NCBI GenBank assembly: GCA_033344915.1
Contig: JAWPML010000001.1
Location: 2,042,369-2,106,368 of the forward strand
Length of the DNA stretch: 64,000 bases
Direction: 5' to 3'
From: Acidimicrobiales bacterium
GTDB taxonomy: Bacteria > Actinomycetota > Acidimicrobiia > Acidimicrobiales > Aldehydirespiratoraceae
Shown here: positions 6,192 to 34,481 of the stretch, one piece after another
How positions within the stretch are numbered: the stretch's first letter is position 1
Layout: every line of letters starts with the position of its first letter
Translations under genes and position numbers: made by a program
Notes under the pieces: generated by a model
Databases searched by the model: none
Told to the model about the DNA's origin: nothing
Seen by the model: the letters and a program-made list of their open reading frames with translations, nothing else

Positions 6192-7106
6192 TCAGCCGAG
6201 GGCGGCGGAGAGCGCTTCGACCGACGGGGCGAAGTAGTACGAACCCGACGCCGGGGTCGAATAGTCGGTGATGAAGTCGGTCTCGTGGCCGTTGTGGCCG
6301 TACATCGCCTCCATGCGCTCACGCATGGGAGCCTGCGTCTTGCAGAAGCCCATGAAGTACAGGCCGACGGTGCCGTCGTGGAACGCGTAGGGCGTGGAGC
6401 GACGAACCATCTCGCCCCGCTTCGGCGTGGACTCGTCGGCGGTGGCACCTTCGCGGAGCTCCACGTGGGACAGGTGCGAACGGGGAACCTGCGTCTCGAG
6501 CTTGGTGGAGTCCGCCTTGGTGCGACCGAAGGTGTTCTCCTCCTCCTCGAGGCTCAGCGTGGCCCAGTAGTCCATGTCGTGGACCCAGCGCTGGGCGATG
6601 CAGTAGGAGCCACCTTCGCCGGGCTGGCCGTCGTCGATGATGCCGCGGTCCTTCTGGTCCTCGGGCTCCGGGTTGCCGGTGCCGTCGATGTGGCCGGTGA
6701 GATCGAGGCTGTTCTTGTAGATGAAGCAGGGGGTCTCACGGGCGACGGACATGTGGCCGGCGAGGGCACGGCGCATCGTGTGCTGGACCTCCCAGATGAG
6801 GTCCTTGTCCGCGTGGTGCAGCCAGAGAAGCAGCTCCTCCTGGGTGCCCTTGGCGACCTTGGCGCCGTCGGGGGACTCGTAGCCCGGGTAGGCCTCGAAG
6901 TCGCCGTCGGTCTCGATGCCGAGATCGGCGGCGAGGGTCGGCCCGAAGAGCAGGCACAGGTTGACGCCCTGCGCCGCGGCGTCCGCCTGGCCGGCCTTGA
7001 GCGCTTCCTTGATGACGCCGAGATCAGCGCCCTCCGTGCGGCTCATGTGGACGTACCACTGGTACTTCTGGAGATCCCCGAGGATCGCGGGCTGCGACGT
7101 TGCCAT
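6192..7106 (-). CDS. Dyp-type heme peroxidase
   Basis: A 304-residue dye-decolourising peroxidase. The family GxxDG motif is present (LTGHIDGTGNPEPED), carrying the catalytic distal Asp. The C-terminal heme-side part is also present (RSTPYAFHDGTVGLYFMGFC). It uses hydrogen peroxide to oxidise bulky substrates. The ATG at 7104-7106 is preceded by GAGGAAAC. No encapsulin gene or C-terminal cargo-loading extension is seen, and the protein ends just after the fold (ALSAALG), so it is probably a free cytoplasmic enzyme. Confidence 0.9.
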   Translation of the reverse strand: MATSQPAILGDLQKYQWYVHMSRTEGADLGVIKEALKAGQADAAAQGVNLCLLFGPTLAADLGIETDGDFEAYPGYESPDGAKVAKGTQEELLLWLHHADKDLIWEVQHTMRRALAGHMSVARETPCFIYKNSLDLTGHIDGTGNPEPEDQKDRGIIDDGQPGEGGSYCIAQRWVHDMDYWATLSLEEEENTFGRTKADSTKLETQVPRSHLSHVELREGATADESTPKRGEMVRRSTPYAFHDGTVGLYFMGFCKTQAPMRERMEAMYGHNGHETDFITDYSTPASGSYYFAPSVEALSAALG

Positions 7107-7197
7107 TGAAAGTGTTTCCTCTGTCGGTGTTCGCGGTTCAGCCCGGACCATAGACGAACGATCGAACGGTTGGCACAGTCCCACCGAGGAATTTCGC

Positions 7198-7234
7198 AAG
7201 TTGAGACGCCGGGGTCAGAGTCCCGTCCCACCTT
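7198..7234 (-). repeat. REP-type repeat, copy 2 (left of transposase)
   Basis: A 37-bp repeat identical to the copy at 8146-8182 read on the other strand, except for one base in the hairpin (CGGGGTCAGAGTCCCG here, giving a G-T pair in the 5-bp stem). It lies 32 bp before the transposase start and probably also covers part of its promoter. Confidence 0.8.
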
Positions 7235-7266
7235 TGCTGTCACACGCCGTTCGTAGCGTGCGGGTC

Positions 7267-8184
7267 ATGCCCAGAACATCTCGTACACGTCAGCCCGGCG
7301 AGTGGCATCACGTCGTCAACCGGGGCGCTCGGCGGCTTCCGATCTTCGGAGACGACGACGACCACGAGTTCTTCCTGAACCTGCTGGCGAAAGCAGTCCG
7401 GCGATCCGGAATCGAGGTCCACGCCTACGCGCTCATGCCCAACCACTACCACCTGCTCGTCCGGGCCGAGGTCGGCACGCTGGCCGTCGCCATGCAAGTG
7501 CTCGGCGGCGAGTACACGCGTCGGTTCAACGTTAAGTACGGACTCGATGGCGCACTCTTTCGCGGCCGCTACCGCTCCGTCGCCGTGGAATCGGAACAAC
7601 ACCTCGCGTCAACGGTGCGATACATCCATCGCAACGCGCCACGAAGCGATCCACCGCGTCTCTCCGACTTCCGTTGGACCAGCCATCTCGCACACTCGCG
7701 ACTCGCCCGCGCGCCGCAATGGCTCGCCCAGTCCCTCGTTGAGCAGCTCTTCGCAGGCGACACGACGCGGCTTCGTCGGTTCGTCGAGGGGCCGAGCATC
7801 GCCGACGATCCCCCGTCGGCGACTGCGCTCGAGGGCGCCTCCGATCCTCGGGTCCTCGATGCAGCAGATGTCGAGCAAGCCCTGGGCGTGGAATCCGAGC
7901 CAGAACGGCGCCTCCTGCAGCAAGGCGGCCGCGGCCTGCGCAATCGGCAACGGACGGCGTGCGTTCTGCTGTGCCAGGAGTTCACCGACCTCACGACGGC
8001 CGCACTCGCCGAGCGGTACGGGTATGGGTCGGCGAGCAGTGTTCGCACGGCTGCCCAGCGGGGGCGTGCACTTGCAGAGTCGGACCTCTCGTTCGCGACG
8101 ACCCTCGACGCAGCCCGCCGGCGACTGAGCCCTGCCAGACCGGTGAAGGTGGGACGGGGCTCTGACCCCGGCGTCTCAACTTGA
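7267..8184 (+). CDS. REP-associated tyrosine transposase (RAYT, Y1_Tnp)
   Basis: A 305-residue protein of the IS200/IS605-like HUH superfamily. The family signature HHVVNRG is at residues 14-20, the HUH-type His pair is H60-Y61-H62 within LMPNHYHLL, and Tyr83 in GGEYTRRFN is the likely nucleophile. RAYTs nick single-stranded REP sequences and are thought to spread them. The C-terminal third contains a helical, Arg-rich DNA-binding-type region (YGYGSASSVRTAAQRGRAL). The last residues (GRGSDPGVST) and the stop are encoded inside the right-hand REP, so gene and repeat are physically fused. Confidence 0.9.
   Translation: MPRTSRTRQPGEWHHVVNRGARRLPIFGDDDDHEFFLNLLAKAVRRSGIEVHAYALMPNHYHLLVRAEVGTLAVAMQVLGGEYTRRFNVKYGLDGALFRGRYRSVAVESEQHLASTVRYIHRNAPRSDPPRLSDFRWTSHLAHSRLARAPQWLAQSLVEQLFAGDTTRLRRFVEGPSIADDPPSATALEGASDPRVLDAADVEQALGVESEPERRLLQQGGRGLRNRQRTACVLLCQEFTDLTTAALAERYGYGSASSVRTAAQRGRALAESDLSFATTLDAARRRLSPARPVKVGRGSDPGVST
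8146..8182 (+). repeat. REP-type repeat, copy 3 (right of transposase)
   Basis: A 37-bp repeat overlapping the last codons of the transposase gene. Its core CGGGGCTCTGACCCCG forms a perfect 5-bp stem with a 6-base loop on single-stranded DNA. It is inverted relative to the copy at 7198-7234, and ten bases later a related half motif, GGTGTCTGACCCC, begins. Confidence 0.8.
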
Positions 8185-30929: not shown

Positions 30930-31438
30930 CTCACGCCGAGCTGATCCTCTACGCGACCCCGACCGGTCCGCTCGCCGACGCCCTCGCCGACCTCTTCGAG
31001 CGCCTCCGGCGCGATGCGCCGACCACCGCACAGACGTACCCGCCGCACTGCACCCTGACCGGCTTCTTCCACCGGGCCCGTACGGACGTGGCCCGGGCCG
31101 TCGACGACGCCCGAGCGGCGGTCGCGGCGGCCGGGCCGCCCACGCTGGTGACCGTGGACCGCCTCCGTTTCGCGCCGGACTGGATCGGGCTGGAACTCAC
31201 CGCTCCATGGCTGCTCGCCGTGACCGAGGCGTTCGTGGATCGACACGAACTCGCCGAGGGCGACGATGCGTTGCGCCCGAAGGACTGGCTGCACCTGAGC
31301 ATCGCCTACGGCGACGGTGACCTCGACGCGGCTGCCCGCATGGCACAACGCCTGGACCCGACGCTCGTCGCCGGGTGGGACGTGGGCGTGTGGGAACGCG
31401 ACGCCGACGGATCGTGGACCGAACTCAGTCGGCCGTAG
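30926..31438 (+). CDS. 2H phosphoesterase-superfamily protein
   Basis: A 170-residue protein with the two HxT/S motifs of the 2H family: YPPHCTLTGFF and WLHLSIAYG. These proteins open cyclic phosphodiesters or act as RNA ligase/phosphodiesterase-like enzymes. The start overlaps the phnM stop (ATGA). In phosphonate operons a 2H protein may act on the cyclic ribose phosphate made by C-P lyase, so pairing with PhnM is functionally sensible. It overlaps the convergent TetR gene by 14 bases at the 3' end. Confidence 0.82.
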   Translation: MTHAELILYATPTGPLADALADLFERLRRDAPTTAQTYPPHCTLTGFFHRARTDVARAVDDARAAVAAAGPPTLVTVDRLRFAPDWIGLELTAPWLLAVTEAFVDRHELAEGDDALRPKDWLHLSIAYGDGDLDAAARMAQRLDPTLVAGWDVGVWERDADGSWTELSRP

Positions 31439-32009
31439 CGACCGCCGACGCCGCAACGGGCAGCGCGGCGACGAGCATCGCGACGAGCCGCTCACCGGTC
31501 ACGCCGTCGTCGACGGGGAGCGTGAACCGGCCGGTACTGCGGAGCCGGGCGTAGCCCCCGACCGCGGCGAGCAGCAGCCGCGTCCAGTGGATCGCGTCGT
31601 CGTCGGTCACGCCGGCGGAAGCCAGCACCGAGGTGAGTGGCTCACCGGCCGCGGCGACGGCCGCCGCAAGCTCCGGGTCCTCGCTCGGTGGATGGATCGA
31701 CAGGTCGTAGAGATCGGGGGCGGCGGTGGCGAACGCGAGATGGACGCGCACGATCGACTCGATCGCGGCCGGCCCGCTCACCCCGAGCGCGGCCGCGGTG
31801 ACGTCGTCGCGCAGCCGGCCGAGCCCGTGCACCGCGATCGCCCGGCGCAGCCCGTCCGCCCCGTCGACATGGGCGTAGAGCGACTGGGTCCGGATGCCGA
31901 GGCGACCGGCGACGGCACCGAGCGATATCGCATCCGGCCCGGCCTCCGCGAGCAGGTCGACAGCACTTGCGACCACGTCCTCACGGGTGATGCCGACACG
32001 TGCGGCCAT
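31425..32009 (-). CDS. TetR-family regulator
   Basis: A 194-residue repressor. The N-terminal helix-turn-helix (ITREDVVASAVDLLAEAG, then LGAVAGRLGIRTQSLYAHV) is followed by a helical ligand-binding domain (WTRLLLAAVGGYARLRSTG). The ATG at 32007-32009 follows AGGGAGG. It diverges from the operon beginning at 32065, with a perfect inverted repeat between the two (32039-32055), so it most likely represses the selenoprotein operon and perhaps itself. Confidence 0.88.
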   Translation of the reverse strand: MAARVGITREDVVASAVDLLAEAGPDAISLGAVAGRLGIRTQSLYAHVDGADGLRRAIAVHGLGRLRDDVTAAALGVSGPAAIESIVRVHLAFATAAPDLYDLSIHPPSEDPELAAAVAAAGEPLTSVLASAGVTDDDAIHWTRLLLAAVGGYARLRSTGRFTLPVDDGVTGERLVAMLVAALPVAASAVATAD

Positions 32010-32038
32010 GCGTCCTCCCTGCGGGGGTTGCCCTTCCT

Positions 32039-32055
32039 GTCTGAATGTATCAGAC
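32039..32055. promoter_or_regulatory. Probable TetR operator
   Basis: GTCTGA-N5-TCAGAC is a perfect 6-bp-arm inverted repeat centred between the divergent TetR gene and the operon starting at 32065. It ends ten bases before that start codon, so it would cover the core promoter of the operon. Confidence 0.65.
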
Positions 32056-32064
32056 TGGTGACTG

Positions 32065-33129
32065 ATGTCTACAGACGCCACCACATCGGCCCCGGGCGGT
32101 CCGCTGTTCCTCGAGGTCGACGACGATCCGATCGCGATCATGGAGGCCTACGCCGAGCGGGGCTGGGGCGACGGCCTCCCCCTCGTCGCCCCCACCGAAT
32201 CCCGCGTCGATGCCATGCTCGCGGCGGCGCCGGGCGACCCGGACGAGGTGATCGCCACGCTGCCGCCCCGCTCCGGCGCGGCGACCCGCCGCATGATCGC
32301 CGTCAACGCCGTGCTCGCCGGATGCGCACCGGCGCAGCTCCCCGTCCTGATCGCCGCCGTACGAGCGCTCGGTGCCCCCCAGCTGAACCTCCGCGGCGTC
32401 AACGCCACCACCCATCCGGTCGCCCCTCTCCTCATCGTCCACGGCGAGATCGCCGAACGGGCCGGGTTCAACAGCGGCCTCGGCGCCTTCGGGCCCGGCA
32501 ACCGCGCCAACGCGACGACCGGTCGGGCCCTGCGGCTCATCCTGCTCCACATCGCCGGCGCCGTCCCCGGCCCCGGCGACGCGTCGACCCAGGGCGGCCC
32601 GGCCAAGTACACCTTCTGCGTCGCGGAGAACACCGCCGAATCGCCGTGGGGCGGCTACGCCCGCTCCGTCGGCGTCGACGCACCGTCGGCCGTGACCGTG
32701 CACTGTGGCGAAGCTCCCCACAACGCCCACGACATGGAATCGGCCGAACCCGCCGCGATCCTGGACAAGCTCGCGTCGGCGATGACCTCACTCGGGCAGA
32801 ACAACGCGCCGATCGCCCAGGGCGAGTACTTCGTCGCCCTGTGTCCGGAGCACGCCGCGGCCTGCGCCGACGACGGGTGGACGCGCGCCGACGTGGCGTC
32901 CTACCTCTTCCAGAACGCCCGGCTGCCGGCCGGCGAGTTCCGCGCCGCGTTCGGGCTCCTCGCCTGGGAGCCCTGGCAACGGGCGCTGCCCGACGACGCC
33001 CTCGTGCCGATGACCGGCCATCCGGACCACATCAAGGTGCTGGTCGTCGGCGGGGCCGGCAAGCACAGTTGTGTCGTCCCGAGTTGGGGGATGACGAAGA
33101 GCGTGACCATTCCGATCGAGGAGCACTGA
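32065..33129 (+). CDS. Unrecognised 354-residue protein, first gene of the selenoprotein operon
   Basis: No family function is recognised. The protein is soluble, with a distinct opening (AERGWGDGLPLVAPTESRV), a central glycine/asparagine-rich segment (GLGAFGPGNRANATTGRA) and a C-terminal half with several Cys residues (VHCGEAPHNAHDMES, ALCPEHAAACADDGW, GKHSCVVPSWGMTKS). There is no signal peptide. Its stop is one base before the selenoprotein start, which implies joint function. The Cys residues could serve as a redox partner of the selenocysteine, but this is a guess. Confidence 0.8.
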   Translation: MSTDATTSAPGGPLFLEVDDDPIAIMEAYAERGWGDGLPLVAPTESRVDAMLAAAPGDPDEVIATLPPRSGAATRRMIAVNAVLAGCAPAQLPVLIAAVRALGAPQLNLRGVNATTHPVAPLLIVHGEIAERAGFNSGLGAFGPGNRANATTGRALRLILLHIAGAVPGPGDASTQGGPAKYTFCVAENTAESPWGGYARSVGVDAPSAVTVHCGEAPHNAHDMESAEPAAILDKLASAMTSLGQNNAPIAQGEYFVALCPEHAAACADDGWTRADVASYLFQNARLPAGEFRAAFGLLAWEPWQRALPDDALVPMTGHPDHIKVLVVGGAGKHSCVVPSWGMTKSVTIPIEEH

Positions 33130-33130
33130 C

Positions 33131-33649
33131 ATGCGGATCTACACACCAGACGGCGCGATCGGCGAGGAGCCGGGCCCGCTCGCCGCGTCCCGACCCGTCC
33201 TCAGCGGCGCCCGCATCGGGATCCTCGACAACACGAAGCCGAACGCCGGCGTCCTGCTCGGCCGCATGGCCGACCGCATCGCCGAACGCACCGGCGCCGA
33301 GGTGCGGATCGTCGAGACGAAGAACGCCGCGCTCGCCGCGCCCGACGACGTGCTCACCCGCCTCGAGAAGGAGGTCGACGTCGTTCTCACCGGCTCGGCC
33401 GATTGAGGCAGCTGCACGTCGTGGAGTGTCCACGACCTCGTCCAACTGGAAGCCGCCGGTGTCCCCACCGTCGTCGTCACCACCACCAAGTTCCGCATGC
33501 TGACCGACCAGGTCGCCGCCTCGCTCGGTCGGGCCGACGCCCGCATCGTCGAAGTCGACCACCCGCTGGGGGGCACGGACGAAGCGACGGTTCGCGCCTG
33601 GGCCGACGCCGCCGTCGAGACGGCCATCGCCCTGCTCACCGAGGCGTGA
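33131..33649 (+). CDS. UGSC-family selenoprotein (in-frame UGA = Sec92)
   Basis: Read with UGA (33404-33406) as selenocysteine, the frame is 172 residues long and ends at the TGA of 33647-33649. Sec92-Gly-Ser-Cys95 gives the UGSC motif of the known UGSC (seleno)protein family, followed by TSWSVHDLVQLEAAGVP. The N-terminal half has LDNTKPNAGVLLGRMADR at residues 32-49, and the C-terminal half VEVDHPLGG and a terminal helix. A hairpin right after the UGA fits a bacterial SECIS. A plain stop would leave a 91-residue protein ending one codon before the conserved motif. The function is unknown, probably redox, since Sec and Cys are three residues apart. It is the second gene of the operon. Confidence 0.88.
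33404..33436 (+). other. UGA selenocysteine codon with SECIS-like hairpin
   Basis: After the UGA at 33404-33406 the mRNA can form GUCGUGGA (33418-33425) paired with UCCACGAC (33429-33436), a perfect 8-bp apical stem with loop GUG. The loop begins 19 nt after the UGA, within the spacing known for bacterial SECIS elements, and it holds the G/U residues that SelB contacts. A small palindrome, GCAGCTGC (33408-33415), lies between. Confidence 0.75.
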
Positions 33650-33650
33650 G

Positions 33651-34481
33651 ATGAGCATCGAGATCGACCACACCGGCAAGGTCGCGCTGGTCACCGGCGC
33701 CGGAGCGGGCATCGGGCGCGAGATCGCCCGCTGGCTCGCCACCGCGGGCGCGGCCGTCGGCGTGAACGACCTGCGGGCCGAGAAGGCGGCCGCGGTCGTC
33801 GCCGAGATCGAAGACGCCGGCGGGCGCGCCGTCCCCCTGGTCGCCAACTGTCGAGACGACGACGCGGTCGACACGATGGTCGCGGCCTGCGTCGAACAGC
33901 TCGGCGGGCTCCACATCGCCGTGAACAACATCGGGATGATCCCGCCGGGCCGCGCCGTCAAGCCCTTCGTCGAGTACCGGGGCGACGACTGGCGCGACAT
34001 CGTCGACCAGAACCTCACGCTCGCCGCCCTGTGCGGTCGGGCCGAGGCGGAGGCGATGCTCGCGCGCGACGGCGGCGTCATCCTCTTTGTGTCCTCCGGC
34101 GAGACCACCCGCCCGTCGCCCTACAACGCCATCTACGCGGCGGCGAAGGCCGCGATCAACCATCTCGTCACGTCGATGGCCGTCGAACTCGGCCCGGGCG
34201 GCATCCGCGTGCTCGCGATGGCTCCGGGCACGACCCTCACGGAGACGGTCGCCGCCGCGTTCACCGAGGAGCGTGCGGCCGCCATCGCCGCGTCGACGCC
34301 CTTGCGCCGCCAGGTCGAGCACGATGAGCTCGCCCGTCTCGCCACCTTCCTCACGAGTGACCTCGCCCGCTGCATCACCGGCCAGTTCATCCTGGCCGAC
34401 GCCGGCGCGTTCCTCTCGAGATCGCGGCCCGCGAACGATGAGGGCCTCAAGACCAAACCGACGGGAGCCAACGCCCGATGA
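33651..34481 (+). CDS. SDR family oxidoreductase in the selenoprotein operon
   Basis: A 276-residue classical SDR. TGAGAGIGREIA is the cofactor loop; NNIGMIPPG replaces the usual NNAG. The serine is in LFVSSGETTRPS and YAAAKAAINH carries the catalytic Tyr and Lys. The ATG begins one base after the selenoprotein stop, and the gene overlaps the NifU-like gene by four bases, so it is co-expressed with both. The substrate is unknown. The C-terminal tail (SRSRPANDEGLKTKPTGANAR) is long and polar. Confidence 0.88.
   Translation: MSIEIDHTGKVALVTGAGAGIGREIARWLATAGAAVGVNDLRAEKAAAVVAEIEDAGGRAVPLVANCRDDDAVDTMVAACVEQLGGLHIAVNNIGMIPPGRAVKPFVEYRGDDWRDIVDQNLTLAALCGRAEAEAMLARDGGVILFVSSGETTRPSPYNAIYAAAKAAINHLVTSMAVELGPGGIRVLAMAPGTTLTETVAAAFTEERAAAIAASTPLRRQVEHDELARLATFLTSDLARCITGQFILADAGAFLSRSRPANDEGLKTKPTGANAR

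Follow-up and report, generated by a model that had tools for sequence, protein, structure and literature searches.

A UGSC-family selenoprotein gene and its partner subunit in an Acidimicrobiales bacterium, with a putative link to GrdB/PrdB-type reductases

The UGSC gene and its in-frame UGA

In the 64,000-nucleotide stretch of DNA analysed here (the window), a UGSC-family selenoprotein gene at 33131–33649 (+) is preceded by a gene for a partner protein of 354 residues (32065–33129, +). One nucleotide lies between the end of the partner gene and the start of the UGSC gene, and GAGGAG (33118–33123, +), within the end of the partner gene, is, judged from its sequence and position, the probable ribosome-binding site of the UGSC gene. 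A short-chain dehydrogenase gene (33651–34481, +), a recurrent neighbour, starts 1 nt after the UGSC stop, and a divergent TetR-family regulator is encoded on the opposite strand (31425–32141, −; PF13305 above its cut-off, PF00440 below). The true start of this regulator probably lies nearer 32009, since that would avoid an overlap with the partner gene. PHROGs gave no credible match; over the 64-kb window, Rfam gave nothing above gathering scores, and a tRNA search found none.

The UGSC frame runs from ATG at 33131 to a TGA at 33404–33406 (+; codon 92) and then, just as a previous sequence-only reading had described, stays open for 80 sense codons up to TGA 33647–33649, the real stop. Read through, the frame gives a protein of 172 residues with selenocysteine (Sec) at position 92, containing ...TGSADUGSCTSWSVHD... 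(motif U92GSC95). The codon of Cys95 (33413–33415, +) provides the second residue of the UxxC pair and, as far as the sequence goes, a possible resolving thiol. The proposed assignment to the UGSC family is borne out by two curated models, both above cut-off across the UGA: PF24696 (‘UGSC family’; E = 1.3e-46, 159.3 bits against a cut-off of 25, residues 3–170) and NF041046 (‘UGSC family (seleno)protein’; E = 5.8e-41, 139.9 bits against a cut-off of 125, residues 26–170).

Mechanical annotation shortens this 172-residue subunit to 91 residues, as had been anticipated: the mechanical ORF list ends the gene at 33406. Taken at face value, that ORF call would make UGA 33404 a true stop, and the locus a pseudogene, a sequencing error or two separate small ORFs, a reading to which we attach almost no weight. 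UGA occupies the position of codon 92 in 101 distinct genes from several phyla, and, in comparison with six relatives, differences are more frequent at third than at first or second codon positions on both sides of the UGA. In other relatives, Cys replaces it (L024, L025, L034, L047, L074, L080, L105 and L113), a substitution that had been named beforehand as a check, and a SECIS and Sec machinery are present as well (see below). The comparison already makes a true stop very unlikely.

Alignment A4, which unites 61 of 64 stand-alone UGSC proteins with the window protein and the second copy from the same genome, has 63 members, every one of which (63 of 63) matches NF041046. Cys95 is nearly invariant among these 63 and invariant in an alignment of 11 members. 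Two UGSC relatives (L116 6342–6953 and L097 704–1306) carry a UGSS motif, with Ser for Cys; a divergent pair of fusion genes (L083 70–1605 and L101 10538–12238) reads UGSCTP/UGACTP and then a VVRASVAAE run, not SWSVHD.

The family as such is known: UGSC selenoproteins were in print by 2008 (the literature is cited here from excerpts of the papers), have Pfam and NCBIfam entries, and have been reported in actinobacteria from Geodermatophilaceae, with TAG as Sec codon (PMC5330540). The window gene, for which no difference from PF24696 or NF041046 was found, therefore only adds one member to it. The description of the family as functionally uncharacterised agrees with the excerpted text of PMC13188914, and the excerpts of the UGSC selenoprotein literature give neither a function nor a link to GrdB.

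SECIS hairpin and Sec machinery

Downstream of the UGA lies a bacterial SECIS hairpin (33418–33436, +), assigned from its fold, from covariation and from the conservation of a G-U loop. Its arms, GUCGUGGA (33418–33425) and UCCACGAC (33429–33436), form an 8-bp stem around the loop GUG (33426–33428). Stem and loop are as first described; the accompanying figure of 19 nt past the UGA holds for the distance from UGA to loop, whereas the stem begins 11 nt after the UGA.

Folding energy was dropped as proof of a SECIS, as both shuffling tests were unremarkable. For the window hairpin, a fold at least as good was reached by 82 of 200 dinucleotide shuffles (z = -0.17); by synonymous-codon z-scores, Sec genes (mean -1.15, n = 103) and Cys genes (mean -1.05, n = 8) look alike, the window gene itself scoring +0.25. 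A comparative test was used instead. It was restricted to hits of at least 90 bits in genes whose motif could be recognised, and merging identical sequences reduced 103 Sec sequences to 101.

The loop starts with G-U in 100 of 101 distinct Sec genes (window and second copy included) and in 0 of 8 Cys genes, these eight coming from a few lineages only. A loop that starts with G-U entails a final T in the seventh codon after the UGA, and the occurrence of T at this third base distinguishes Sec from Cys genes (Fisher P = 2.4e-11); among the other AGY and TGY codons nearby in the Sec genes, C is the usual last base (225 C, 69 T). The stem pair 20–26, counted from the U of UGA as 0 and formed by two third codon positions, is of Watson–Crick type in 100 of 101 Sec genes (72 G-C, 28 C-G) and in 4 of 8 Cys genes; in a permutation that ignores kinship, the mean was 60.1, and 0 of 10,000 permutations reached 100. 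The outermost pair, 14–32, is weaker (standard in 79 of 101 Sec genes). L116, one of the two genes with the variant motif UGSS, is the only one of the 101 Sec genes without a G-U loop. By this comparison of sequences, the SECIS hairpin is under constraint at the RNA level, beyond coding needs, and the earlier suggestion that it suits a bacterial SECIS stands, both the G-U loop and the third-position pair being kept in nearly all Sec genes, against none (loop) and half (pair) of the Cys genes.

The genome (G000; 4.48 Mb, one contig) holds all four components of the decoding machinery that the sequence-only reading had pointed to: tRNA-Sec (RF01852, 64 bits, above the Rfam cut-off; also reported as tRNA-SeC by ARAGORN), SelB (275.7 bits), SelA, which adjoins SelB (PF03841, E = 2.2e-95), and SelD (359.8 bits). 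Judged by this gene complement, the organism is able to decode Sec. The selD gene (L022 1501–2427; G000 C1:1225971–1226897) contains one in-frame TGA, which makes selenophosphate synthetase a probable selenoprotein as well. At G000 C1:933555–934055 (L021) lies a second UGSC gene, whose motif likewise has UGA; here, the partner gene overlaps the UGSC start by ATGA. The same genome contains a further GRDB-family gene with an in-frame TGA, GrdB/PrdB-like in character (L149 5483–6082; G000 C1:331482–332081; PF07355, E = 4.6e-7).

UGSC was matched in 106 of the 296 genomes searched in the class to which this genome belongs, and the matches listed mostly contain one TGA. SelB was found in 87 of these 106 genomes versus 73 of the 190 without UGSC (Fisher P = 2e-13), on the assumption that both searches covered the same 296 genomes. 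No SelB match at E 1e-70 was obtained in the other 19 UGSC genomes: in G087, G145 and G220, none of the UGSC matches contains a TGA, which is what Cys users should show, and at least G060, G188, G197, G292 and G295 have the TGA form, for which draft genomes or the strict threshold must be part of the explanation.

Taken together, family models that span the UGA, Sec or Cys at the position in relatives, a SECIS under selection and a complete Sec machinery are the features of a decoded Sec codon, and they confirm, at the level of sequence comparison, that the window gene is a UGSC-family selenoprotein gene, in which UGA 33404 appears to be read as Sec.

A second subunit and the thioredoxin-like domain of some partners

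A second subunit accompanies UGSC, either as a separate gene or as part of one fused ORF, and is represented in the window by the upstream partner gene. The partner lies within 300 nt of UGSC in 29 of 31 UGSC loci, comprising the two of this genome and 29 of the best-scoring others from its class; in L035, it is further off, as a partial match at the edge of the locus, and in L029 (longer stretch L148), it is situated ~3.7 kb upstream. The partner matched nothing in Pfam or NCBIfam at E 0.01 and has no significant relative among PDB sequences.

A search with the partner in one genome per species (84,980 species) gave 586 confirmed stretches, the best 80 of which were used. These 80 come from Acidimicrobiales, Chloroflexota, Betaproteobacteria, Rokuibacteriota, Nitrospinota, Binatia, Myxococcales, the haloarchaeon Natrialba asiatica and others, the closest named relatives among the matches listed being Acidimicrobiales MAGs. 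A UGSC match is present in the fetched stretch at 76 of these 80 partner loci, L089 (see below) among them; three of the remaining four are cut by a contig end near the partner, and the fourth, L132, is a genuine exception, its partner gene (6971–7999) having no UGSC match within ~7 kb on each side. The titles of four stretches (L093, L094, L123 and L127) name Bordetella parapertussis; these are MAG contigs with environmental-looking isolate names, and the label is probably wrong.

Fusions of UGSC and partner were found as 18 ORFs in 14 loci, with UGSC first in 17 and the partner first in one; the ORF in L102 runs off its locus, and that in L083 holds unread bases. A predicted structure of the fused protein from L084 reached a pLDDT of 91.3 and a pTM of 0.92 over both domains, with a linker of low confidence, and would fit a single compact enzyme; the Foldseek and VIA matches listed for this model fall mostly on the UGSC half. 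A UGSC/Unknown_1 fusion noted in the GOS survey (PMC2398784, in excerpt) likewise joins a UGSC protein to an unannotated domain, and Unknown_1 is likely to be the partner described here.

Some loci depart from the simple pair. One Chloroflexi genome has three tandem UGSC–partner fusion genes (L112 4320–9771). In L089 (4900–6744), the UGSC half of a fusion has neither Sec nor Cys at the motif, and a second, unfused partner gene adjoins; from its sequence, this fusion is possibly a non-redox derivative. In the haloarchaeon N. asiatica (L074 5713–7403), a Cys-form UGSC and its partner lie in a cluster of CoA and lyase genes.

The partner alignment (A5) consists of 51 of 67 stand-alone partners, the window partner and 14 of 18 fused ORFs, and contains 19 invariant columns over its 66 rows. 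A single Cys is invariant, Cys87 in the window protein, and on this conservation, it is a candidate active residue. Other conserved positions of the window partner include D36, N81, R154 and E188.

The partner from the second copy in this genome (L021) and those from 12 further loci begin with an additional domain, in which CxTC and VPT are invariant (alignment A7); the window’s own partner is without it. Each of the 13 aligned N-termini is hit by the thioredoxin model TIGR01068 at E up to 0.1 (6.4e-6 at best), and a profile built from them finds PDB thioredoxins (best 4.1e-5). The scores shown for single N-termini are below curated thioredoxin cut-offs, and hence the domain is, as far as these profiles tell, a divergent thioredoxin. 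Its fusion to some partners suggests that the reductant of the enzyme is probably thioredoxin, fused or free.

The neighbouring genes bear on the substrate. A short-chain dehydrogenase gene lies within 600 nt of the module in 15 of 82 stretches, counting the window, and a gene for a TctC-type receptor does so in 12 of them; genes for CoA-transferase III, acyl-CoA dehydrogenase, MmgE/PrpD and luciferase-like proteins recur more loosely, and the Natrialba locus also has enoyl-CoA hydratase, HMGL-like, Lyase_1, DUF6282 and PEP-mutase-like genes. This catabolic neighbourhood suggests a substrate of organic-acid or acyl-CoA type and a role in organic-acid catabolism.

Proposed relation to GrdB and PrdB, and a possible enzyme

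At E up to 0.1, the GrdB model is matched by 33 of the 63 UGSC members (best 3.7e-6), the GrdF model by 18 (best 8.6e-7), the GrdH model by 13 (best 2.5e-5) and the PrdB model by nine (best 0.006). The window protein alone reaches 15.7 bits against the GrdB equivalog TIGR01917, with a cut-off of 602.2, and aligns only with positions 332–397 of 431. Comparison of profiles by hhalign, using 15 full-length GrdB-type selenoproteins from the phylum, gave E = 3.1e-6, a score of 49.2 and a probability of 88 over ~95 residues; Sec falls on Sec, and the Gly after Sec and the GIP and HP.G motifs are in register. When the columns of the UGSC profile were shuffled, 100 such profiles scored at most 22.4 against GrdB. 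We infer from these profile matches a remote homology, in which UGSC corresponds to the GrdB/PrdB Sec region in the form of a stand-alone subunit.

The resemblance to GrdB (TIGR01917, PF07355) and to GrdF and GrdH (sarcosine/betaine) resides in their C-terminal Sec region. GrdB and UGSC are also alike in going with a second gene and in being linked to thioredoxin, the latter through domain fusion in some UGSC partners. By contrast, GrdB has ~327 residues before the aligned region and UGSC has 72; Cys95 has no counterpart in the 15 aligned GrdB-type proteins, where it falls on Ser or Gly, and 14 of these 15 rows have a Cys six residues after Sec. Published tables do list UxxC for PrdB and for marine GrdB (PMC1088965 and PMC2398784, in excerpt). 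The second genes also differ. In 14 of the 15 GrdB loci, the gene preceding GrdB, which we take to be GrdE, was chosen by position and not by model; the partner shows no relation to these 14 genes (probability 0.3). Profile comparison was negative, and the partner was rejected as a relative of GrdE or GrdB.

PrdB (242 residues, Sec152, UxxC; PMC3091704 and PMC1088965, in excerpt) is, like UGSC, a small Sec subunit with a separate second subunit, the substrate-activating PrdA, whereas the match between PrdB and UGSC is weak, UGSC is shorter (172 residues) and its partner is a different one. According to the D-proline reductase scheme in the excerpts of PMC3091704, the pyruvoyl group of PrdA binds the substrate and Sec of PrdB attacks the alpha carbon; the selenoether is then resolved by a Cys of PrdB, with thiol exchange bringing the electrons back. 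The same source has glycine reductase fed by thioredoxin.

The AlphaFold2 model of the window UGSC protein (pLDDT 95.3, pTM 0.89) contains five strand–helix alternations, with Sec92 just before a helix. Foldseek and VIA-align matched it to lumazine synthase, the C-terminal part of a NagZ-type enzyme, and CheY-like and B12-binding domains; thioredoxins are absent among the structural matches listed, an absence that does not amount to exclusion. The UGSC profile shows no resemblance to the thioredoxin domain of the partners (probability 0.4). The predicted fold is (beta/alpha)5, and probably not the thioredoxin fold suggested in print.

This prediction bears on the reading supposed in the first papers, in which UGSC would be a general thiol/selenol oxidoreductase or peroxidase, with the partner as protein substrate or scaffold. 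Such a role would suit the UxxC motif and the peroxidase activity reported for GrdB in the title of a reference cited in PMC3091704. The five strand–helix alternations and the lumazine synthase, CheY-like and B12-binding matches speak against it, as does the dissimilarity between UGSC and the partners’ thioredoxin domain, and the 19 invariant columns over 66 partner rows would suit an enzyme subunit better than a redox client; we therefore consider a general oxidoreductase rather unlikely.

Having regard to the sequence comparisons above, we lean, with a little more belief than doubt, towards a Sec-dependent reductase of GrdB/PrdB type that has two subunits and is linked to thioredoxin: the gene would encode the subunit that carries Sec, and the substrate-handling subunit would be the partner, which is unrelated to the gene in GrdE position. 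In such a reductase, Sec92 would attack a carbon of the bound, activated substrate, as proposed for GrdB/PrdB enzymes; Cys95 would then resolve the intermediate on Sec92, leaving a selenide-sulphide for re-reduction by thioredoxin, which some partners carry as a fused domain. The similarity of the Sec regions and the thioredoxin fusion are what make this scheme like that of D-proline reductase. Binding and activation of the substrate would fall to the partner, in a role like that of GrdE or PrdA; as the partner is unrelated to the gene in GrdE position and to GrdB, this part is an analogy only. The bond that would be cleaved need not be C–N: for one GrdB-like operon, the proposed role is the removal of fluoride from fluoroacetate (PMC10838667, in excerpt).

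Confidence in a GrdB-like mechanism, and in the broader class of enzymes described below, is slightly lowered by the position of Cys95, unmatched in the GrdB proteins used. Together with the lack of homology between the partner and the gene in GrdE position, and with the short-chain dehydrogenase, CoA-transferase, acyl-CoA dehydrogenase and TctC-receptor genes nearby, it would also fit a Sec-dependent enzyme that is not of GrdB type, for example, one in which Sec reduces or isomerises a substrate held wholly by the partner in CoA-linked acid catabolism. We regard such an enzyme as unlikely, since Sec, the following Gly, GIP and HP.G all align with GrdB, far above shuffled controls.

The partner gene, the second copy in the genome and the relationship to GrdB go beyond the earlier note. 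The family descriptions of PF24696 and NF041046 mention neither a partner subunit nor a relation to GrdB, and the excerpts of published work searched contain no mention of the wide partner module, of its thioredoxin domain or of a link to GrdB.

With a co-occurring partner, naturally fused forms, a thioredoxin domain on some partners and a link to the Sec region of the glycine and proline reductases, what was an orphan redox motif becomes an enzyme hypothesis that can be tested, and the Cys form in a deposited haloarchaeon, N. asiatica DSM 12278, would permit a test without Sec incorporation. In its broadest form, which we put forward tentatively and with distinctly less confidence than the GrdB/PrdB-type reductase itself, UGSC and its partner may represent an unrecognised, widespread class of Sec-dependent reductive-cleavage enzymes outside the amino-acid-fermenting clostridia. 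Such enzymes would join the catalytic Sec domain of GrdB/PrdB to a substrate-activating subunit of a new kind, some lineages adding a thioredoxin of their own, and would break a carbon–heteroatom bond in organic-acid catabolism.
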